A stretch of DNA of 62,060 nucleotides from a virus, in the IMG/VR virus record IMGVR_UViG_3300044970_000368, positions 1 through 62,060 of that record; one strand, 5' to 3'. Shown piece by piece: positions 22,532-62,060 of this stretch. The notes below the pieces were generated by a model, which was given only the letters and a program-made list of their open reading frames with translations, was not told the DNA's origin and did no database searches. Each line of letters begins with the position of its first letter. Position 1 is the stretch's first letter. The translations under genes and the position numbers were made by a program.

Positions 22532-22777
22532 CTAAAACGGGTCAACATTATTTTCAAAAAAAGCATCCCACTCCGCAACCGCATCAATAGTGGGTTTGCG
22601 GTCTACGATGTCCGCTGAACCGCTTGCAGACTCGCTGAAATTTTTTTCATATATTTTTCTTGCCTCTTGGTAGTTTTTCTCTGCCAGCGCAAATCGAGTC
22701 TGGATGCGGTTCTCCCATATTCCAATGCTTGTTTCGAGGAGCATGAGACAATGCTCGTATGCGTGATCTTTATTCAT
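22532..22777 (-). CDS. Hypothetical helical protein
   Basis: 81 residues from ATG at 22777 (MNKDHAYEHCLMLLETSIGI). Helical, ends AEWDAFFENNVDPF. Overlaps the helicase gene end by 8 bases. Could be a helicase partner by position only. Confidence 0.6.
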   Translation of the reverse strand: MNKDHAYEHCLMLLETSIGIWENRIQTRFALAEKNYQEARKIYEKNFSESASGSADIVDRKPTIDAVAEWDAFFENNVDPF

Positions 22778-24062
22778 GGATTTCCTCAAAGCGTGAAATT
22801 TCTCCGCGCATTTTGACTGGCACGAACACGTCTCGTTGACCTCGGCGATTCTTATCTATGCGGATGCGTGATGTCGGTTGCGCTGGTGCTGTCTTGCGGT
22901 AGCCAGCAGGTTCTTTCTTCTTATCGTCTGGATGCGAGATAATGAGCAGGAAATCTGTGTGATGCCCGATTGCGCGTGATTCACGCACTGCTCCATCGTC
23001 GTTGAGTTGTGATGCTGTCAGCACCACGGAATTTGTCTTGAGTGCTGTGAGCTTCAGCCTGCGTGATAGTTCGCTCACTGCCTGCTCTCTATTGTCGGCG
23101 TTAGGCATCGTTACAATTTGTAGGTAATCGACCACAATTACATCTGCTTTTCCAAGTGACGCGAGCCTGTTTGCTTCCGCGATTATCTCACCAACCTCGG
23201 ACATATCGTCGCGGATCGTAAGGTTCATCTGCATTAGTTGTCCGATTGCATTGGAAATGTCCTTCGCACTGGCAACTGTCTTCCAGTCTGACACTGCATT
23301 GATCTCACGCATTGGAACGATTGTCTTTCCAATCAAGTTACACGCCATGCGTTGCAGGATAGACTTCGCTGGCATTTCAAGGGAGAAGATCGTTACTGCC
23401 TTTCCCTCCAGCAATGCATTGAGTGCCGCCTGATACAACAAGATTGACTTACCTCCGCTGGTCTGCGCTCCGACAACGAGCATTTCACCTCGGCGCATTC
23501 CACCTCCAAGGTATTTGTCAACCTTTGGAATTCCAGTGGCAAAGTTTTCCAGTGGTGACTTGTTTTCTAAATCGTCAAGGAAATCGCTCAGATGCTCCTT
23601 TACGCTCTTTGAATTGGTTTCTGGCTGGATTGCATTAGCCAGCGCATCAGCGATTGCTGGCAGGTCTGCACGCATGGCGCAAACATCGTCATGCGCTTCC
23701 TCCCATGTCTTGATGGCATCGCGGTATCCTTTTGCCTTGAGAAGTTGTGAGCGATAGTCCGCTGCTGTCTCAACGCACATAGCTCCCGGTGCAAGTAGGA
23801 TTGTCTTGAGCGTTTCGATTACTCCTTCCTTTCCTCCAGCGGAATTTAGCTTGCCAGTGGTTTCGAGGTCAGAAATAGCCCCCAGTGCGTTTGTTGATCC
23901 TGTCCGCTGGTAAACCCTTTCGAGTGCCTTGAAAATCAGTTTATGCTGCTCCAGAGCGAAAAGATCAGCGTTCCATGCGAGGTGCGGTAGAACCTCTGGA
24001 TCGATTGCGATTAGTGATAATGCCGCTTTCTCGGCGGTAATTGCGATAGGTAGTGATTTCAT
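22770..24062 (-). CDS. dnaB: DnaB-type replicative helicase
   Basis: 430 residues from ATG at 24062. N-terminal DnaB domain (EKAALSLIAIDPEVLPHLAW), then a RecA-like ATPase: Walker A GAQTSGGKS (198-206), FSLEMPAKSILQRMAC, Walker B VIVVDYLQI (308-316), and ASQLNDDGAVRESRAIGHH. It unwinds DNA ahead of the fork. The initiator gene is immediately upstream, so the two form the replication core. No DNA polymerase or primase is recognised in the window, so host enzymes are probably recruited. Leader ACATACATACATG without Shine-Dalgarno. Confidence 0.92.
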   Translation of the reverse strand: MKSLPIAITAEKAALSLIAIDPEVLPHLAWNADLFALEQHKLIFKALERVYQRTGSTNALGAISDLETTGKLNSAGGKEGVIETLKTILLAPGAMCVETAADYRSQLLKAKGYRDAIKTWEEAHDDVCAMRADLPAIADALANAIQPETNSKSVKEHLSDFLDDLENKSPLENFATGIPKVDKYLGGGMRRGEMLVVGAQTSGGKSILLYQAALNALLEGKAVTIFSLEMPAKSILQRMACNLIGKTIVPMREINAVSDWKTVASAKDISNAIGQLMQMNLTIRDDMSEVGEIIAEANRLASLGKADVIVVDYLQIVTMPNADNREQAVSELSRRLKLTALKTNSVVLTASQLNDDGAVRESRAIGHHTDFLLIISHPDDKKKEPAGYRKTAPAQPTSRIRIDKNRRGQRDVFVPVKMRGEISRFEEIHE

Positions 24063-24073
24063 GTATGTATGTA

Positions 24074-24886
24074 TTAGCAAGCCCGTGAGTATGTCATCTC
24101 AACCTGTTGCTGCTTTGGTTTGATCCAGTCAGCTTTGAATGATTGCCATCCACGGGTGACGCATTCTGTCAGAGCATCGTTGAGTGTCAAGCCTGCAAGT
24201 TCAGATTCTTTTTCAATCATGTTCAATGCAGTTTCAGTCAGCGGTGCGCGTTTAGCTTTACGGACTTCGAGGAAGTCATTCCAGACCTGTTGAGAAACTG
24301 ACTCTGGTTTTGTAAGTGTTGCCTTGGTGGGTTTATTGCCTTTACCAGTTGGTAAAGGTAATAAATCCTGCTGTGTTGCTATATTATTAGGTATTTCATT
24401 ATTAGTATTAGGTATTTTGTTATTAGTAATAGGTATTTGGGTGCGGTTTTTCCACAGTGTGGATTCACCACCCTGTGGGAAACCCGTAGGGTGGTTTTCT
24501 GGTAGCTCTGCAACATGGAAATTGCCAAGAGTTGCGTTCTGTGCAAAGCGAACTCCGACATACCAACCGATAACTTTACCGCTGGCATCCTTGCGTTGGA
24601 CATCCTCAATGAATCCAGCTTCCTTGAGTTGAGCTTTTGCTTTTGTGAACTTATCTCGACCCCATTGAAGACCAGTCATGGCATAATCTGATGTTGCATG
24701 AACTGCCGTGTTTTTCTGCCACTTGCGAGTGTAGGCGTAAAATGTGTAAAGCGCGATACAATCGCCGGGATTGTCCATCTTCAATAACCGATCAATTGTC
24801 GGTTTGGTAATTCCAATCAAGTGATCCTCGATTGATCCTTCTGCCATTGTATGGCATCTCTCGTATTGTTCTATTTTAAATTGCAT
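24074..24886 (-). CDS. Replication initiator / helicase-loader-like protein carrying iterons
   Basis: 270 residues from ATG at 24886; a second possible start, MAEGSIEDHL, lies 13 codons in. A longer reading from 24979 is rejected because it would include the terminator hairpin. The N-terminal ~110 residues look like a winged-helix domain (TKPTIDRLLKMDNPGDCIAL, LQWGRDKFTKAKAQLKEAGF). The middle holds 7-residue repeats (IPITNNK, IPNTNNE) made by 21-bp DNA repeats, and the C-terminal domain (VWNDFLEVRKAKRAPLTETA) resembles DnaD/loader-type tails. The arrangement mimics lambda O, whose gene contains the origin. The DnaB helicase is next. Confidence 0.7.
   Translation of the reverse strand: MQFKIEQYERCHTMAEGSIEDHLIGITKPTIDRLLKMDNPGDCIALYTFYAYTRKWQKNTAVHATSDYAMTGLQWGRDKFTKAKAQLKEAGFIEDVQRKDASGKVIGWYVGVRFAQNATLGNFHVAELPENHPTGFPQGGESTLWKNRTQIPITNNKIPNTNNEIPNNIATQQDLLPLPTGKGNKPTKATLTKPESVSQQVWNDFLEVRKAKRAPLTETALNMIEKESELAGLTLNDALTECVTRGWQSFKADWIKPKQQQVEMTYSRAC
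24339..24494. other. Candidate replication origin inside the initiator gene
   Basis: In order: dyad CCTTTACCA-GT-TGGTAAAGG (24339-24358), an A/T-rich stretch, three iterons with AGGTATTT at exact 21-bp spacing (24389, 24410, 24431), palindrome CCACAGTGTGG (24452-24462) and a 12-bp-stem hairpin with AAA loop (24468-24494, two G-U pairs). Iterons plus A/T-rich DNA plus dyads within an initiator gene next to the helicase gene match lambdoid origin organisation. Confidence 0.6.
24389..24438. repeat. Three 21-bp iterons
   Basis: The core AGGTATTT starts at 24389, 24410 and 24431. Flanking bases are also similar (ATTAGTATTAGGTATTTTGT at 24401-24420). Spacing is two helical turns, so a bound protein would face one side of the DNA. 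Confidence 0.8.
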
Positions 24887-25009
24887 AAGAAAAAAACCCT
24901 GTCTCAAGTGAACCTCCCGCGAGGAAACCCACGGGCATGAGACAGGGTAAATTGTTTGTGTTTTTGACATCGGGTTCAAGCGATGTGCTTCAAATGAAGC
25001 TACACTATA
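24887..25009 (-). promoter_or_regulatory. Structured leader of the initiator gene
   Basis: On the minus strand, three hairpins follow each other in the gap: GCTTCA-TT-TGAAGC (25000-24987), ACATCG-8-CGATGT (24986-24967) and the large terminator-like hairpin (24948-24896). The start codon lies only four bases beyond the T-run. This is the layout of an attenuator or conditional terminator. Confidence 0.6.
24896..24948 (-). terminator. Terminator-like hairpin with branched loop
   Basis: A perfect 11-bp stem (ACCCTGTCTCA / TGAGACAGGGT) encloses 31 bases that can form an inner hairpin (CCTC-CCGC-GAGG) or an alternative CCCG/CGGG pairing. Seven T follow on the minus strand. Confidence 0.8.
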
Positions 25010-53533: not shown

Positions 53534-54262
53534 TTATACTACTGTCCATGTTGATCCACTTGGCACTGTCACAGTAACCCCAGAGTCAATCGTAACTGGG
53601 CCTGCGGTCATTGCATTTTTATTTGTAGAAATTGTGTAGCTGGCGGTGACATTCTGATCATTCTCCCAGAAGATTTCGTCTGTTCCTGCGCCAGTTGCGC
53701 CACCAGTTCCAGCAGGGCCAGTCGATCCTGTGGCTCCATCAAGGCCAGTTGCGCCAACATCTCCAGTTGCACCAACCAAGCCAGTTGCTCCAGTTGCTCC
53801 AGTTGCTCCAGTTGGCCCTTCAACACCAGTAGCCCCAGTAGGCCCACCACTTGGGCCAGTAGCTCCACTTGGGCCAGTTGCACCAGTCGGGCCACCACTT
53901 GGGCCAGTAGCACCAGTAAGTCCAGTTGCGCCAGTGGAGCCATTTGAACCAATAAATCCGCTTGCCCCTGTAGCTCCAATCGGGCCAGTCGCACCCATGA
54001 ATGTGCCATCATTAGCAAGGCGAATAAAATAACACATCAAACCTTCATCGGTAAGGCGAGGTTGATCAAAAATCTCTGTGGTATTATTTGGATCGCATGG
54101 AATATTCCAAATTACTCGACCATGAGAAACCGATTTCTCAATAGTTCCATAAAGAGCATAAACAAGATTTCCAATCAGTGATGGAACTGACTCTGGAGAA
54201 ATCGTAGGATATGGAACCTCTGGGCAGGCTGTTGAAGTAGAGTTAGAGCATCCGCAAGACAT
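53534..54262 (-). CDS. Collagen-like virion protein, short
   Basis: 242 residues from ATG at 54262 ([20 protein letters not shown]); a longer in-frame reading to 54304 is less likely. A Cys-rich head domain (~95 residues), then about 30 Gly-x-y triplets ([14 protein letters not shown]), then a C-terminal beta domain ending [12 protein letters not shown], which matches the end of the 54312-55994 protein ([12 protein letters not shown]). Confidence 0.75.
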
Positions 54263-54311
54263 ATAAGATTTCGTTAAAATTGCATTATTAAAAATTAAAG
54301 TCAAACATTTT

Positions 54312-55994
54312 TTACACTACAGTCCAAACTCCACCAGTTGGAACAGTAACAACAGCTCCAGATGCAATTGTTATAGGGCCAAAACTACCAGCGTTTTGCG
54401 CTACTGGTATTGTGTAAGATGTATTTACAATTTGTCCATTCAAAAAGAAAATAGCATCTGTTCCTGCTCCTGTTGCACCTCCACCACTTCCAGCAGGGCC
54501 GGTAGCACCAGTTGCACCCTGCGTTCCAACGCCCGTGGCTCCAGTTGCTCCACTCGCTCCAACCCCAGTAGCACCCGTTGATCCCGTCGAACCTTGTATT
54601 CCTTGGATGCCTTGAACACCCTGCACACCAGTAGCTCCAGTAGCTCCATCAATACCTTGAATTCCGGTGGCTCCAGTGCCACCTTGAATACCTTGAATTC
54701 CGGTTGCGCCAGTCGCGCCTGTGGAACCTTGTATTCCTTGAGGCCCAGTAGCACCAGTGCTTCCGTTAATACCTTGAATTCCGGTTGCGCCAGTAGAACC
54801 TTCTGGGCCAGTCAATCCTGTAGAGCCAGTGGCTCCTTGAATTCCTTGTATACCTTGAACTCCAGTTGCACCAGTTGATCCATCAATGCCTTGGATACCA
54901 GTGCTTCCCGTTGATCCAGTCGCGCCTTGCCCTCCAACCACACCAGTTGCGCCCGTGCTACCAGTCAACCCTGTTGCTCCAGTAAGACCAGATGTAACGA
55001 TAGCAAAGATCAATTGCTGGTTGTTTGAGAATTGCGATACTCCAGCAGATGTAACAAATGTTACTGGTATTGAAACATAGCTATTAGAAACAACAGTTGG
55101 AGTTGCGGAGATTTGCCAAGTTTGGTAATTACTGGAATTTCCTTGGTCTTGAATAATAAATGTATCTCCCGTCTTAAATAGAGAGAAGAAAACATCAATA
55201 TCATTTCCCAGTGCATCAATGTGAGAGAGCGTTACAATCGTAGCAGAAGTTTGAGTAGCATTATCCCAATACAATGTCTGAACTGAAGGAACTCCTGATG
55301 TTATTGTTGTATCTGCTTTATAGTTGTAAAAAGTAGATGACTGCCCAGCCGCTCCAGTTGCACCAGTAAGACCTGTTGAGCCAGTTGCACCAATTCCCGT
55401 TGCCCCTGTTGATCCATCTAATCCAGAAACACCTGTCGCGCCCGTGATTCCCGTTGCGCCTTGACCTCCTGTTAGTCCCGTTGCGCCTTGACCTCCAGTC
55501 GCACCAGTCGCACCAGTCGATCCAGTGGCTCCCTGTCCTCCTATCACGCCAGTCGCACCTTGAATACCTTGAATTCCAGTAGAGCCTGTAGCTCCCGTGG
55601 AACCTTGTTCGCCTTGAATGCCAGTCGCACCAGTGGCTCCCGTGCTGCCTTGACCTCCTGTTAATCCAGTAGCCCCTGTTGAACCATCGTCACCTTGGTT
55701 TCCTTGAATGCCTTGAACACCTTGAGGCCCAGTAGCTCCAATTAAACCTTGACTTCCTGTTGCGCCAGTTGATCCAATCCCAGTTGCTCCTATTAAACCT
55801 GTGGCTCCCGTGCTGCCGTCTGGCCCAGTCGATCCAGTAGAACCTGTAAGTCCAGTCGCACCTGTTGGCCCAGTTGCACCAATTGCAGCAGTATTAGCTA
55901 TAGAATCCCATGCAAACCCATTCCATTGCCAACCTTTTCCTCCAGCAAAAAAAGTTTCTCCAATAAAAGTCGGAATAGGAAAAGTGATTGGCAT
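54312..55994 (-). CDS. Collagen-like tail fibre
   Basis: 560 residues. Head domain [18 protein letters not shown], collagen triplets (~40-205), a non-collagen domain (~220-340, [20 protein letters not shown]), a second collagen block (~345-500, with many GIQG triplets), and a C-terminal TWTVV-type domain. Trimeric fibre likely. The 54263-54311 gap before the next gene holds no feature. Confidence 0.8.
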
Positions 55995-56015
55995 ATCTTA
56001 AATCAAAAGGTTTAT

Positions 56016-56312
56016 TTACTTTTCTGCTTTCTTTTTGTCAAAGGAAAGTTTTAGAACTTGCCAGTAAACCTCGTCAATAAGCGTTCCGAGTTCCTCTACT
56101 GTTTCTTCCTGCAAGTCGGATAGTCTTGCGTGAATTAGTTCGTGCGATAAAACATTAAGAAGGTTGCTTTGCGAGTTTGGATTGATCGTAATCAAGCGTT
56201 TTTCGTAATCACAGCAACCATCGTCTGTGACACCATCAGTCTTGCCGGGATGTCCAAACTTAATAGTCCACAATTGACCATTAATTCTTGCTTTTACGCT
56301 TTTTTTCGTCAT
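56016..56312 (-). CDS. Small zincin-like metalloprotease
   Basis: 98 residues from ATG at 56312. NLLNVLSHELIHARLSDLQE contains H-E-L-I-H with a downstream EETVEELG that can supply a third, Glu, ligand. An earlier segment (DGCCDYEKRLITINP) is typical of minimal SprT-like or phage zincins. It could process virion or host proteins. A longer in-frame reading is rejected because of overlap with the upstream gene; overlap is 32 bases even so. Confidence 0.65.
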   Translation of the reverse strand: MTKKSVKARINGQLWTIKFGHPGKTDGVTDDGCCDYEKRLITINPNSQSNLLNVLSHELIHARLSDLQEETVEELGTLIDEVYWQVLKLSFDKKKAEK

Positions 56313-56544
56313 GGAAAAAATAATGTGGAGTCTTGTGCATTGCGTTGTTTTTACGAGGCAGGAAATAATCTTTTCTTTCAACAATTCCAAGCTCAACTCC
56401 TGCATTTAGTCGCTTATTGGTTGCAGTTGAATTAAGATTCCACAACTTGCACAAGTCTTTGCATGAATACCACCCTTTAGGAACTGGTTCGTATCGTTTA
56501 TGGATACTATCTTGGATGATTTTTAGAAAGTCGTTTGGAGTCAT
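56281..56544 (-). CDS. Small winged-helix-like protein
   Basis: 87 residues from ATG at 56544 (ATGA with the phosphoesterase gene). GWYSCKDLCKLWNLNSTATN then KRLNAGVELGIVERKDYFLP looks like a helix-turn-helix with a wing, ending in a basic tail KKRKSKN. A possible late regulator. The fold assignment is by pattern only. Confidence 0.5.
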   Translation of the reverse strand: MTPNDFLKIIQDSIHKRYEPVPKGWYSCKDLCKLWNLNSTATNKRLNAGVELGIVERKDYFLPRKNNAMHKTPHYFFHDEKKRKSKN

Positions 56545-57305
56545 ATTGGAAGTCTCCACACATCTCCTTTTGCGCGTTGCGTGATTTGAAGTGATGATTG
56601 ATGCAATGACTCGCAATACTCTCCCCACAACCATCCTTGACACCAACTAAATGTGCTTCTGCGATTTTTAGCATATTCCAATGCTCCGCGAGCAGTAAGA
56701 GTTCCAATATTATAGCAAGTTCCACCATGATATGTTCTGGCATTTTGAATCGCTACACGATGAGTATGCCCCATGATTATTTTGCGCCTGCTTCTATCGC
56801 AATATTGCTCTGCCATGTCTCTTGCCGCAGATTCTCCATAACAAGTTCCATGAGTAAATCCCATGTCTGCTATATCAACAATTTGTTCAATTCCAGAATA
56901 CGGAATCAACCTTGCTTTAAGTTTTTTTGATGTATCTTCAATTGCAGAAATAATTTTGTGGGCGCAATATGATGTAACGGCATTTTTACTATTTGTTAGC
57001 TTCCACGCTCGATCTTCATGGTTGCCACAAAGGATATATGGGTCTTTGCATCCTGCCATTAGTTGTCGCAAATGAGTTAATCCAGTATCAATATCTGGAG
57101 TTATTTCATCTCCATCATTACCAGACCCTGCGCCATTTCCCATTAGCGCAGACATATCAATAAAGTCACCAAGATGAAGTATTGTGTCTGGCTTAAATTT
57201 TTCTTTGAATGCCATCACTTGTTTCCATGCTTCGGAATCGCAATAACGGGCATGACTGCAAGAAACTGCCAGCACTTTTTTCCATTTGTGTGCAATATTA
57301 GCCAT
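56541..57305 (-). CDS. Metallophosphoesterase (calcineurin-like), altered first motif
   Basis: 254 residues. GDF (46-48) in LHLGDFIDM, GNHED (94-98), TH at 151-152 (FTHGTCYG), and MGHTHRVA (178-185) are the canonical metal motifs. The first motif, normally DxH, reads C16-S-H18 in LAVSCSHARYCD, so one metal ligand is changed. The family hydrolyses phosphomonoesters or phosphodiesters, including nucleic acids and cyclic nucleotides. It lies in the lysis/fibre region instead of with replication genes. Confidence 0.75.
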   Translation of the reverse strand: MANIAHKWKKVLAVSCSHARYCDSEAWKQVMAFKEKFKPDTILHLGDFIDMSALMGNGAGSGNDGDEITPDIDTGLTHLRQLMAGCKDPYILCGNHEDRAWKLTNSKNAVTSYCAHKIISAIEDTSKKLKARLIPYSGIEQIVDIADMGFTHGTCYGESAARDMAEQYCDRSRRKIIMGHTHRVAIQNARTYHGGTCYNIGTLTARGALEYAKNRRSTFSWCQGWLWGEYCESLHQSSLQITQRAKGDVWRLPI

Positions 57306-57311
57306 ATTTAT

Positions 57312-57833
57312 TTATATCGATGCAATACTTGGATGAATGCGAATCAAATCTTTTACAAGAGATTTCTTTCTAACTTTTCTCCAGACTCCATCTCCGCTTG
57401 TTGAATCTCTTTCACCTTTGCCATTCGTATTTCCTTCCAAAGTCACAATTTCTTTCCCTGTGTCTTCAACAACAAATCCAACATGAGAGAAGTCAAATGT
57501 TACGATGTCGCCAAGTTGCGCCTTGTGCGTTTCATTATATACTTTAGTGGTGCTTGGACGCTGTAATGCCCAAGATTTTAGTCCATACGCAAGTGCTGTC
57601 TTTGGTCGCCATTCTTCTGGAGTCCTGCGTTGAAGATTAAGCCAAATTACAACTTGAGGAATAGCCAACCATTCACGAATACACCAATCCGTATAAGCGG
57701 CACACCAAGGCCAAGCTCCGGGGTTTAAATCTGTCGCGGATTGATACTCGCGGATTCGTGATCCACGATTATTTCCGCCTTCTTCCCTCACGCCAACTTC
57801 AGCAGAAGCAATGGCGATAAGTTTGTGAAGCAT
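57312..57833 (-). CDS. CHAP-domain endolysin
   Basis: 173 residues. C44 in WPWCAAYTDW, H117 in FDFSHVGFVV and N135 in LEGNTNGKGE form the CHAP catalytic triad. The enzyme cuts peptidoglycan peptide or amide bonds. There is no signal peptide, so a holin is needed; three small membrane proteins are encoded directly upstream. Length matches single-domain endolysins. Confidence 0.85.
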   Translation of the reverse strand: MLHKLIAIASAEVGVREEGGNNRGSRIREYQSATDLNPGAWPWCAAYTDWCIREWLAIPQVVIWLNLQRRTPEEWRPKTALAYGLKSWALQRPSTTKVYNETHKAQLGDIVTFDFSHVGFVVEDTGKEIVTLEGNTNGKGERDSTSGDGVWRKVRKKSLVKDLIRIHPSIASI

Positions 57834-57836
57834 GAA

Positions 57837-58001
57837 TTATTTGTTGCTATCTTTGGCAAGGATTAAGCCAACGCCAGCGGTAACTGCCGCAAAAAGTAGG
57901 CCAATATCACCAAGCGTTCCGTTAGTCAAGAATTCTTTGCCTGCGTCAGCAACTGCTGCGAGGATTGTAAATACTCCGAGGAGCGAGGTTTTCCAGTTCA
58001 T
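57837..58001 (-). CDS. Holin-like membrane protein 1
   Basis: 54 residues: MNWKTSLLGVFTILAAVADA, polar loop GKEFLTNGTLGD, then IGLLFAAVTAGVGLILAKDS. Two membrane segments with a short charged end. Proteins of this type next to phage lysozymes are common holin candidates. ATGA with the upstream lipoprotein gene; three bases before the endolysin start. Confidence 0.65.
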   Translation of the reverse strand: MNWKTSLLGVFTILAAVADAGKEFLTNGTLGDIGLLFAAVTAGVGLILAKDSNK

Positions 58002-58156
58002 TTTTTTGTTCCTTTTGGTTCGGGAAGTTCATAAGTAAAACTTCCGTATTGTGTCTGTAGAGAGATACCAAGTGTCTCGCACCCTGTCAAGAATGCCATT
58101 GCTAAAAATGCAAACGAGATGATAACTAATCCAACTGCGATTTGTTTAGGGTTCAT
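57998..58156 (-). CDS. Small lipoprotein in lysis cassette (spanin-like candidate)
   Basis: 52 residues: MNPKQIAVGLVIISFAFLAM then AFLTGC, a lipobox (L-T-G-C26), and a short mature part. A lipoprotein of this size in a lysis cassette could be an outer-membrane spanin subunit. That would imply a Gram-negative host. No separate inner-membrane coiled-coil spanin is clear. Confidence 0.6.
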   Translation of the reverse strand: MNPKQIAVGLVIISFAFLAMAFLTGCETLGISLQTQYGSFTYELPEPKGTKK

Positions 58157-58329
58157 TGTTTACGGATTTTGTTGAACATATAAACTGCTGTGAGAAGTCC
58201 CGCAATAAGAGAAACAAACAATCCGCTCACTCGCAAACCAGTTTCAATGTGTGGCATCATGCTAACCATGAAACCAGTAAAACTTGTGGTGGTTCCTAAA
58301 ATACCTGTGAGTGTCGTATTGTCGTTCAT
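58153..58329 (-). CDS. Holin-like membrane protein 2
   Basis: 58 residues: MNDNTTLTGILGTTTSFTGF and VSGLFVSLIAGLLTAVYMFN. Two hydrophobic segments, short basic C-terminus NKIRKQ. Overlaps both neighbours as ATGA. Second holin or antiholin candidate. Confidence 0.6.
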   Translation of the reverse strand: MNDNTTLTGILGTTTSFTGFMVSMMPHIETGLRVSGLFVSLIAGLLTAVYMFNKIRKQ

Positions 58330-58490
58330 TCTTCTGGCTTCTCGTTAATAGTTGAATAATCTAAATCTTTTCGCTTAACTGCATAAGTTCCTTCTGGCAA
58401 AGGCCAAGTTTCGGTGTTGCCATCCCAGCGGATGACCATTTCTACGAAATTTCCTTCTTTGTTGATGATTGCCCAGTCGTCGATTTCCAT
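58326..58490 (-). CDS. Small fibre-cassette protein, copy 1
   Basis: 54 residues: MEIDDWAIINKEGNFVEMVI, RWDGNTETWPLPEGTYAVKR. Paralogue of the 60878-61057 product; WDGNTETWPLPEGTYAVKR is identical in both. Each copy follows a collagen/glycine-rich fibre gene, so it probably belongs to fibre assembly. Confidence 0.7.
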   Translation of the reverse strand: MEIDDWAIINKEGNFVEMVIRWDGNTETWPLPEGTYAVKRKDLDYSTINEKPEE

Positions 58491-58492
58491 AA

Positions 58493-60589
58493 TTAAAAAT
58501 AAGTTGTGATCATTACAATTCCGGGTGCGCCATCACCTCCGTTGCCGCCAGTTCCTGTTGCAGCAGATACCGATCCTCCACCGCCACCGCCACAACCAAA
58601 CCCAGTGGCATTTGCTCCTGCCCCGCCATTTCCTCCAGCAAATGTAGATGCACCCCCACCCCCACCACCACTACCATTGATTACGAGCGATGGTATTGCG
58701 CGAGGGGTAACAGCTGCTCCATTCCCTCCATTGCCAGTAGTTGAGGCAATTCCGCCAACCCCAGTTCCGCCCGAAATAAACTGCGCTGCTCCACCCGTTC
58801 CTCCGTTAAATGGAGTTGTTATTGAACATCCGCCTCCAGCACCACCAGCTGACGGGGCGTAACTTTGTCCTGATCCACTTCCTCCAGCGGCAGTTATATT
58901 TCCAGCTCCTCCTATATTTCCAGCAGGCGCACCGGGCAAACCCGCAGTTGATGCCCCTCCTGCCACTCCAACCCCACCAATACCCCCTCCGTTGGCGTTT
59001 ACAAAAACACCTAAAGTTGATCCGCTTACATTTGACGGAGTTCCTGCTGTTGCATTTCCCGTAGTTCCTCCAGACCCACCAGAACCAACTGTTACTGTAT
59101 ATGTTGCATCTGTTAAATTGGCGGCATTTACCAATACCCTTGTGTAACCAGCAGACGCACCGCCACCACCTCCAGATACGGAAGCTCCAGCGGCAACTTG
59201 AATTCCTCTGCCACCACCGCCACCACCACCAACGCATTCAACTACAACTTGTTTTGCGCCTGCTGGTTTTGTCCATGTGCCAGCACCTACGAATCGGTCA
59301 ATTTGTGGAGAAATCGTTCCGCCAGTCGCTCCGGTTGCGCCTTGCTCTCCAACTCCAGTTGCTCCAGTCGCTCCAACCCCAGTTGCCCCAGTGCTACCCG
59401 TTGCTCCAACGCCTGTTGCACCTTGAACGCCAGTTGCGCCTTGAGGCCCAAGCTGGTTATACATCACCTGCATTACTGAAATAATTACAGATGGAATATT
59501 CGGTGCTGGTGCAGTTGCTGTATTGTGGTCAATACCAATATTGGTATTGTTAGTTGACCACATGATCTGGAAATTGTCTCCAGCGGCAAAATTATCCATG
59601 AAGTCCCACGCAGCAACCACATATGGATTATTTGTTGGAACAGATACGCGAGTAGCAGAATCTGGAATATCAGTTCCATTTTTACGGAACCAAATTTGAA
59701 CAATATCGCCGCCACCTCCACCACCATTGTTATGCAATTGAGCGGAGAATTGAATGTCGTATGTTCCCGAACTTGTAAAAGTAATTTGTGATCCACTAAC
59801 TACTGAAATACCATTTTGTCCAATGACATTATTTACTGTCATTGCATATGCAGTATTAATAACGGCAGCAGTTTGATCAACATTGCTAAAATATGATCCG
59901 TAAAAACCAGACGCTCCACCAGCACCTGTCAAACCTGTAGCACCTTGCAAACCTGTAGCTCCCGTAGCTCCGCTTGCACCTACTCCAGTAGCTCCTGTAG
60001 CACCATCGTTACCTGCGGCTCCAGTGGCTCCAGTGCTTCCTGTAGCACCATCCGCGCCAGCAACGCCCGTAGCCCCGGTCGATCCTGTAGCTCCATCTGC
60101 CCCAGCAATACCCGTGGCTCCAGTCGCACCATCGTTTCCACTTAACCCAGTCGCGCCTGTGCTTCCTGTAGCTCCGTCATTGCCAGACAAACCAGTGGCT
60201 CCTGTGCTACCTTGACCACCTGCGGTTCCTGTCGCGCCAGTTGCTCCATTAGTTCCAGCAGTTCCAGTAGCACCTGTGGAGCCTTGGTTGCCTTGCACGC
60301 CAGTAGCACCAGTGCTACCTTGACCACCTGCAACTCCTGTAGCACCAGTCGATCCAACTCCTGTAGCTCCTGTAGCCCCTGTTACACTTGATCCCGTAGC
60401 ACCTGTCGCGCCAACTAAACCAGTTGCCCCAGTGCTTCCAGAACCTGTCGCGCCTGTGCTGCCCTGAATTCCGGTAGCTCCTGTCGGGCCACCACTTGGG
60501 CCAGTGGCTCCTGTTGCGCCAATTCCAGCGGTTGCTGAACTTCCGATAAAATCAAGTTTACCTGTGAATGGATTGAATGTAAGTGCCAT
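58493..60589 (-). CDS. Collagen/glycine-rich tail fibre, cassette 1
   Basis: 698 residues. Start [12 protein letters not shown]-type head, long GATGATG collagen block (to ~225), a jelly-roll-like domain (~230-375), a second short collagen block, and a glycine-rich C-terminal domain beginning [20 protein letters not shown] and ending [11 protein letters not shown]. The [10 protein letters not shown] glycine-rich domain is known from phage fibre tips, where polyglycine sandwiches bind receptors. Paralogous to the split gene at 61060-1170. Confidence 0.8.
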
Positions 60590-60591
60590 AA

Positions 60592-60861
60592 TTAAGAAAT
60601 TACTACATTAACAAGATTGGCATCATTTACTGTTGGAGGCTGAACTGAATATGTCAGTGTAAGCGTAGCAACAACAACAGAGTTGTTTTTATATACAACA
60701 GTAGCAATGTTGTTTGTTGTTCCGTAATATGTCAATGCAAGTTCGTCATATTCTGGAATTTGAAAACCTTGCAGATTTGCAATTGATGTTTCAATTGAAT
60801 TGAATCCATCTAAAACAAGGTGACGATATTTTGCTGTGTCAAGAATTGAGGGTATATCCAT
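60592..60861 (-). CDS. Small structural protein between fibre cassettes
   Basis: 89 residues: [40 protein letters not shown], beta-rich. Common small phage protein type with unknown role. Separates the two fibre cassettes. Confidence 0.6.
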
Positions 60862-60877
60862 AATTTAAATATAAATG

Positions 60878-61057
60878 TTAAGTGAGTGTATGTCCATCGT
60901 TTTGTTTTTCTTTGATAATTGAATAGTCAACTTCGCTCCGTTTGACGGCATATGTTCCTTCTGGCAAAGGCCAAGTTTCCGTATTGCCGTCCCAACGAAT
61001 TCCCATTTCAATCTCGTGTGTTTCAGAATTAACAATAAGCCAGTCGTCGATTTCCAT
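60878..61057 (-). CDS. Small fibre-cassette protein, copy 2
   Basis: 59 residues: MEIDDWLIVNSETHEIEMGI, RWDGNTETWPLPEGTYAVKR, ending KQNDGHTLT. Paralogue of the 58326-58490 product. Start lies two bases after the fibre stop. Confidence 0.7.
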   Translation of the reverse strand: MEIDDWLIVNSETHEIEMGIRWDGNTETWPLPEGTYAVKRSEVDYSIIKEKQNDGHTLT

Positions 61058-61059
61058 AA

Positions 61060-62060
61060 TTAAAAATAAGTTGTGATCATTACAATACCGGGTGCGCCAT
61101 TACCTCCATTGCCTGCTACTAAACCAACAGTATCGCTTGAGCAAGAACCACCTCCACCACCACCACAACCAAATCCAGAAGCATTTCCGCCTGCGCCACC
61201 ATTTGATGTTCTTGATGATCCACCACCTCCACCACCTCCGCCACTCATAAGGAGGGATGGAATGCTAGTAATTGGTGTAACTATGCCGCCTGCGCCACCT
61301 CCAAGCGTCCCTGCTGCTGCTGTAGGCAATCCCGATATGCTGTTATTTCCACCCAGCCCTCCTGCAAATGCTGCTGTTGTAGATGTCCCGCCTCCAGACC
61401 CACCAGCACTTGGCCCGTGATTGGCTGCTGCACCAGAACCTGTTGTTCCTCCTGCTGCTCCTGCTGTTCCAGAAAGTCCAAAAGTTCCCTGCGGAAGCCC
61501 TGAAAAACCTCCCGTTGAATTGCCCGGAGTAGCCCCGACTCCACCACCACCACCTCTACTGGCAGAAATAAATGTTCCAAGCGTGCTTCCAGCAATAGAT
61601 GAATTTCCACCCGGCCCTGCGCTTGCACCACCAGCAGTTCCACCAGACCCTCCAGCCCCAACTGTTACTGTATATGTGGCATCTGTTAAATCAGCGGCAT
61701 TTAGTGTTACACGGGAATATCCCCCAGACCCTCCAGCACCACCACCAGAAGAAATTGTAGCAGCGGCAACTTTCAAGCCTGCACCACCCCCGCCACCACC
61801 AGCAACAATCTCAAAGAAAACTTGCTTTGCGCCTGCTGGTTTTGTCCATGTGCCAGAACCAATGAATCGGTCAATTTGAGGAGAAAGCGTTGCTCCAGTT
61901 GCGCCAGTTGCGCCTTGCGCCCCGACTCCAGTTGCTCCAGTAGCTCCAACTCCAGTAGCACCTGTGCTACCCGTTGCACCATCGTTGCCGCTCAATCCAG
62001 TAGCACCTGTTGCGCCAACATCACCTTGAACGCCCGTTGCTCCTGTTGCTCCATCAATGC
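61060..62060 (-). CDS. Collagen/glycine-rich tail fibre, cassette 2, C-terminal part (continues from base 1)
   Basis: The frame is open at the window edge and continues from the N-terminal part at 1-1170, total about 690 residues. After collagen triplets it has [20 protein letters not shown] and a glycine-rich domain ending [11 protein letters not shown], as in the 58493-60589 gene. The DNA just after each stop (AATTATGGAAATCGACGA on the minus strand) is the same, showing duplication of fibre plus small gene. Confidence 0.85.
61963..62060. repeat. 98-bp terminal direct repeat, right copy
   Basis: Identical to bases 1-98. Removing one copy leaves a 61,962-bp circle in which the fibre gene is uninterrupted. 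Confidence 0.9.

Follow-up and report, generated by a model that had tools for sequence, protein, structure and literature searches.

The window examined here is the complete 62,060-base record of an uncultivated virus, which has open ends and no cultured relative by blastn. Its minus strand carries a gene for a 257-residue protein, whose start codon we infer to be the ATG at 24847. The protein matched PHROG 678, annotated as replication initiation O-like (E 3e-28, residues 43-248), and its C-terminal part alone (residues 168-257) was also assigned to this family (E 1e-21). The initiator gene is followed by a gene for a DnaB-type helicase; genes for RecT-like, exonuclease and SSB proteins lie in the neighbourhood. 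The protein comprises an N-terminal winged-helix-like domain, a disordered linker whose coding DNA contains the iterons, and a C-terminal three-helix domain. The genes and domains are located as follows.

24074-24847, minus strand: initiator gene, 257 aa (translation, PHROG 678, AlphaFold2)
22770-24062, minus strand: DnaB-type replicative helicase gene (PF03796, E 4e-35; PHROG 19)
24545-24847, minus strand: N-terminal domain (residues 1-101) with a predicted winged-helix fold, proposed to bind the iterons (AlphaFold2, Foldseek)
24116-24313, minus strand: C-terminal domain, residues 179-244, proposed to recruit the helicase and exchanged among relatives (PHROG 678)

Just before the initiator start codon, transcription reaches a hairpin that resembles a strong terminator (24895-24948, minus strand). 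Its 11-bp outer stem, ACCCTGTCTCA/TGAGACAGGGT, leads into a T run, and the RNA fold z of the hairpin was -5.0, which suggests antitermination or attenuation before the replication genes. Tandem genes at 53534-62060 encode several proteins with collagen-like GATG/GSTG repeats, which are probably tail fibres.

The primary and predicted tertiary structures of the initiator were compared with those of known proteins. In the AlphaFold2 model, the N-domain displayed helices at residues 15-22, 27-44, 53-60 and 64-76 and strands at 80-86 and 92-99. This H-H-H-H-E-E succession is the winged-helix order, and pLDDT was 79-92 over residues 11-40 and 51-90. Residues 102-176 were predicted to be disordered and to be followed by the helical C-terminal domain. 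Foldseek matches of the N-domain in the PDB were weak (best E 5e-3) and were nearly all winged helices, including the plasmid initiators 4pt7 and 5kbj and the DnaD N-domain 2v79. A sequence search of the initiator against solved structures gave no match. Pfam likewise gave no hit for the initiator, while lambda O matched PF04492 (Phage_rep_O) at 6e-36. Neither hhalign, which gave no alignment of note, nor Pfam related the N-domain to lambda O. Against cultured phages, the candidate origin DNA gave only chance hits by blastn, and protein matches fell mainly in the C-domain part. In the initial annotation both the iterons and the protein had looked unrelated to lambda. This holds for the iterons and for PF04492, but the C-domain falls in PHROG 678, a family whose N-terminal part also matches lambda O.

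Within the initiator gene, the initial annotation had described three cores at exactly 21-bp spacing, an A/T-rich stretch, a palindrome, a stem hairpin and a 9-bp-arm dyad. Each was found in the DNA, at the positions given below together with the conserved block that includes most of them.

24430-24438, minus strand: iteron 1, core AAATACCTA, found in 32 of 32 N-domain relatives, of which six read it in a different frame
24409-24417, minus strand: iteron 2, core AAATACCTA
24388-24396, minus strand: iteron 3, core AAATACCTA, in the more distant relatives reduced to AAATAC or AAATGC
24379-24438: proposed unwinding region, coinciding with the iteron tract, 82% A+T
24452-24462: palindrome CCACAGTGTGG, imperfect in several relatives, in a codon-frozen region
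24467-24495: hairpin ACCACCCT(ACGGGTTTCCCAC)AGGGTGGT, with 13-nt arms ACCACCCTGTGGG/CCCGTAGGGTGGT
24339-24358: 9-bp-arm dyad CCTTTACCA/TGGTAAAGG, within 19-nt arms at 24329-24368 (z -4.2 against shuffles)
24383-24511, minus strand: conserved DNA block, delimited by codon freezing and proposed as the origin core (hairpin, CCACACTGTGG element and iterons)

The iterons are tandem direct repeats inside the initiator coding sequence, between the parts encoding its two domains. The core reads TAGGTATTT at the three iteron positions (AAATACCTA on the coding, minus strand), with spacings of 21 and 21, and these are its only copies on either strand of the record, where 0.24 would be expected by chance. 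At least three copies occurred in 0 of 100 shuffles. In the linker peptide the iterons appear as IPITNNK, IPNTNNE and IPNNIAT, of which the first two had been noted at the outset. By nearest-neighbour duplex stability, 24379-24438 ranked first as the least stable 60-mer of the whole record, so that an easily melted A/T-rich region lies at the iteron site itself; the 60 bp following the tract are 58% A+T. Cumulative GC skew had been proposed as a check and did not mark the site. Read on a record with open ends and nearly all genes on one strand, it had no turning point at 24.4 kb, and its detrended extremes were at 18.2 and 53.2 kb.

Relatives were collected from IMG/VR, 80 loci by the whole protein and 35 by the N-domain alone. 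We compared codon use among in-frame relatives, counting only codons for the same amino acid and only pairs below 85% nucleotide identity. The same-codon fraction was 0.95 in residues 116-154, as against 0.45 in the N-domain and 0.47 in the C-domain, and in each of 272 pairs the linker value was above that of the N-domain; the pairs are not independent of one another, yet the difference is extreme. The best 38-codon window fell exactly in this block of residues, with freezing ending within iteron 3. A search with DNA alone, using CCACAGGGTGG and CCASASTGNGG, recovered 25 viral contigs, and every one inspected carried the initiator gene.

Six relatives (L013, L016, L097, L104, L115 and L116) lack a segment of ~40 nt that includes the second hairpin arm, and where they have two iteron copies the spacing is 22 rather than 21. 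As a result, the DNA between the two length changes is translated in another frame, giving peptides such as NLHCGKTPDKYL where the window has STLWKNRTQIPI. Through iteron 1, including a CCACACTGTGG-like sequence, 25-30 of 34 nt are nevertheless identical to the window, and in one of these genes the first copy of AAATACCT is read as K-Y-L and the second as E-I-P. The palindrome CCACAGTGTGG is also retained out of frame in L013, L016, L104 and L115. DNA that is kept while being read in another frame shows that selection is acting at the DNA level. The alignment of homologues, named in the initial annotation as a way to see whether the repeats are kept, thus gave a clear answer: it is the DNA of the repeats that is conserved and not the protein, with frozen codons, and in some relatives in a different frame.

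Taking into account that the hairpin at 24467-24495 is missing in these six relatives, it is probably accessory. It also scores as terminator-like on the plus strand, opposite to the genes, and might serve as a stop for an antisense transcript at the origin. The dyad at 24339-24358 had been counted as part of the cluster, but it is restricted to close relatives, with a same-codon fraction of 0.37-0.38 (residues 161-176), and this lack of conservation places it probably outside the origin core. The full third iteron is also limited to close relatives.

We then compared iteron sequence with N-domain type. The linkers of all 32 genes with the window-type N-domain contained AAATACCT, and 31 of them had at least two copies, L104 having a single full core. 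No gene among 65 O-like genes with a different N-domain had two copies (Fisher 1.5e-24). Thinning at 85% identity left 11 of 12 genes with at least two copies in the first group and 0 of 35 in the second (p 7e-10). A sister N-domain clade (L118 and L146-L150; 38-46% identical to the window, alignment A4) possessed paired AAATGCTTTA with a spacing of 24 or 27 in five of its six members, and AAATACCT in none. In an IQ-TREE tree, AAATACCTA-type and AAATGCTTTA cores fell on opposite sides of a branch supported 100/99, while the inner order of the sister clade is unsure because of long branches. AAATRCYT is common to the cores of both clades. Iteron sequence is therefore matched to the type of DNA-binding domain.

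On the basis of sequence comparison, we consider it very likely (probability about 0.86) that 24383-24511 is a phage replication origin of the lambda/P22 type, located in the linker-coding part of the initiator gene. The parallel with the lambda O gene drawn in the initial annotation is thereby supported by comparative evidence. Natural compensating frameshifts together with frozen codons separate selection on DNA from selection on protein, and in this way place the candidate origin within ~130 bp by sequence alone. In the mechanism we propose, the N-terminal winged-helix domain would bind the AAATACCTA iterons, whose 21-bp spacing would present them on one face of the DNA. Several bound initiators together would then bend the iteron tract and melt its A/T-rich DNA, the instability of which is evident from the duplex calculation. 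The C-terminal domain would finally recruit the phage's own DnaB-type helicase, the product of the next gene.

The iterons might instead be a site at which the initiator controls its own gene, by roadblock or autorepression, with the origin lying elsewhere. Iteron-binding initiators of iteron plasmids often act as regulators too, and any cognate binding site would fit the same DNA-level evidence. However, the site lies ~410 bp into the coding sequence, sigma-70 promoter patterns near it were no better than chance, and the record's duplex stability is lowest at this very position. Taking into account that lambda, P22 and L already display an intragenic origin, we regard control of the gene alone as unlikely.

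A second explanation is that the block is selected as an mRNA element, a hairpin or a translational control. The 24467-24495 hairpin indeed folds better than shuffles (z -4.0), and a fold of this strength together with frozen codons is what such an element would display. On the other hand, six relatives have iterons without the hairpin, and the strongest conservation is that of an A/T-rich tandem repeat of about two helical turns, with a spacing of 21 or 22. In the sister clade both core copies are changed to AAATGCTTTA. Rfam gave no credible match for the block, only one sub-threshold chance match to a miRNA. An RNA element is accordingly a very improbable account of the block.

The C-domains found behind the window-type N-domain and its iterons were of at least four types, which indicates that the iterons travel with the N-domain. 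Because the site sits between the parts encoding the two domains, the N-domain stays linked to its own iterons when the C-domain is swapped. In L018-L023, C-domains 86-91% identical to that of the window (83% in L022) follow unrelated N-domains, a pattern that points to a recent swap of initiator halves at the linker. Such exchange would also be expected if the block were a recombination boundary, with linker DNA kept for promoting the exchange of initiator modules, and both the four C-domain types behind one N-domain with iterons and the near-identical C-domains behind other N-domains agree with this. The core, however, follows the N-domain type and is absent from O-like genes with the same C-domain, and a boundary would predict neither tandem repeats nor minimum duplex stability; we consider this even less probable than an RNA element. 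Least credible of all is a low-complexity protein linker with incidental DNA repeats, since the predicted disorder and the TNNK/TNNE-type repeats of other O-like linkers cannot account for a codon identity of 0.95 against 0.45 or for DNA conserved in a different frame, and codon freezing and the frame-shifted relatives rule out repetition of such a linker by chance.

In most relatives inspected, a DnaB-type helicase gene is present downstream of the initiator gene, sometimes after a methyltransferase-like insert. These DNA-methyltransferase-like genes differ from one another and occupy one place between the initiator and helicase genes, as judged by eye from translations.

L007:3778-5109, L009:3711-4730, L010:3779-4495, L011:3759-4418, L102:3322-4047 and L107:3272-4012: methyltransferase-like inserts, recognized by eye

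L108 and L114 have the window-type N-domain and iterons with an 'AYPKK' C-domain, and no helicase gene directly downstream; exonuclease-like and ssDNA-annealing-like genes (by eye) are found there. This exception agrees with the notion that C-domain type matches the helicase partner, which the data fit without proving it.

Full DNA-level testing covered the family with the window-type N-domain. Other O-like genes that have the C-domain in common with the window differ in their linker repeats. Those with a DUF1376 N-domain (L031, L055-L061 and L066-L074) have linkers in which ACCAATAACCA is repeated, in frames 0 and 2. Their linker codons are again frozen, with same-codon fractions of 0.82-0.87 compared with N-domain values that are mostly 0.3-0.55, and judging from these sequences the genes probably represent another family with intragenic origins. 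If their linkers are origins, DUF1376 would be an origin-binding domain. Three genes with HTH_36-like N-domains (L049:715-805, L034 and L047) have palindromic iteron-like repeats in several frames with a spacing of 22 or 17; the repeat of L049 is GCCAATTTGGCACCCC, in two frames, and those of L034 and L047 are GACACAGTGTCACCC-like. A scan with the L034-type N-domain recovered L034 itself only.

We give even odds to a modular design, suggested by these other linkers, that would hold generally across a great many uncultured phages: an exchangeable winged-helix domain, matching iterons in the linker DNA just behind it, and an exchangeable C-domain. If true, the initiator linker would directly reveal the origins of many metagenomic phages and the DNA targets of uncharacterized domains such as DUF1376. 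Replication origins in uncultured phages can rarely be located. In the initiator family described here, one origin type carries several attached C-domains, and the two sister DNA-binding domains with cores AAATACCTA and AAATGCTTTA provide a test set for a recognition code. A replicon module as compact and self-contained as this one could be studied on a small plasmid in a laboratory host.

Among known systems, iteron plasmids with initiators of the RepA/Rep winged-helix type share direct repeats of about two helical turns and a winged-helix domain with the system described here (weak matches 4pt7 and 5kbj). Plasmid iterons usually lie outside the rep gene, whereas here they are within the coding sequence. 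The DUF1376-type phage primosomal or O-like proteins (PHROG 6451) share the C-domain type and a repetitive, codon-frozen linker DNA, and differ in the N-domain and in the repeat, ACCAATAACCA. In lambda O, the N-terminal half binds DNA and the C-terminal half binds the partner, and we propose the same division for the window protein, which is not a member of the PF04492 lambda O family. The lambda origin also has an A/T-rich unwinding region, but there it is separate from the iterons, which are four interrupted palindromes of 18 bp, rich in G/C, whereas here non-palindromic iterons themselves form the A/T-rich tract. In the strict sense the site is thus not of the lambda type, as 18-bp ATCCCTCAAAACGAGGGA iterons are absent and the stability minimum is the iterons themselves, with no separate A/T-rich tract. 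The helicase loader lambda P is replaced here by a phage DnaB-type helicase. In the passage of PMC7466680 that cites Dodson 1986, two iterons and the AT-rich region are enough for unwinding in lambda, and relatives of the window with only two iterons fit this. The coding regions for lambda O, P22 gp18 and L gp18 contain iterons, with a sequence particular to each initiator, and the partner replication gene of P22 and L (gp12) encodes a DnaB-type helicase (PMC8022706). Phages P22 and L, with gp18/gp12, are the closest known systems in gene content, having likewise iterons in the initiator gene and a neighbouring gene for a phage DnaB-type helicase; phage L has six copies of TGTCCAACGGA, as against two or three of AAATACCTA here. 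Within the literature of open PMC articles, the intragenic kind of origin is known, and the iteron, the initiator type and the strength of the evidence are new.
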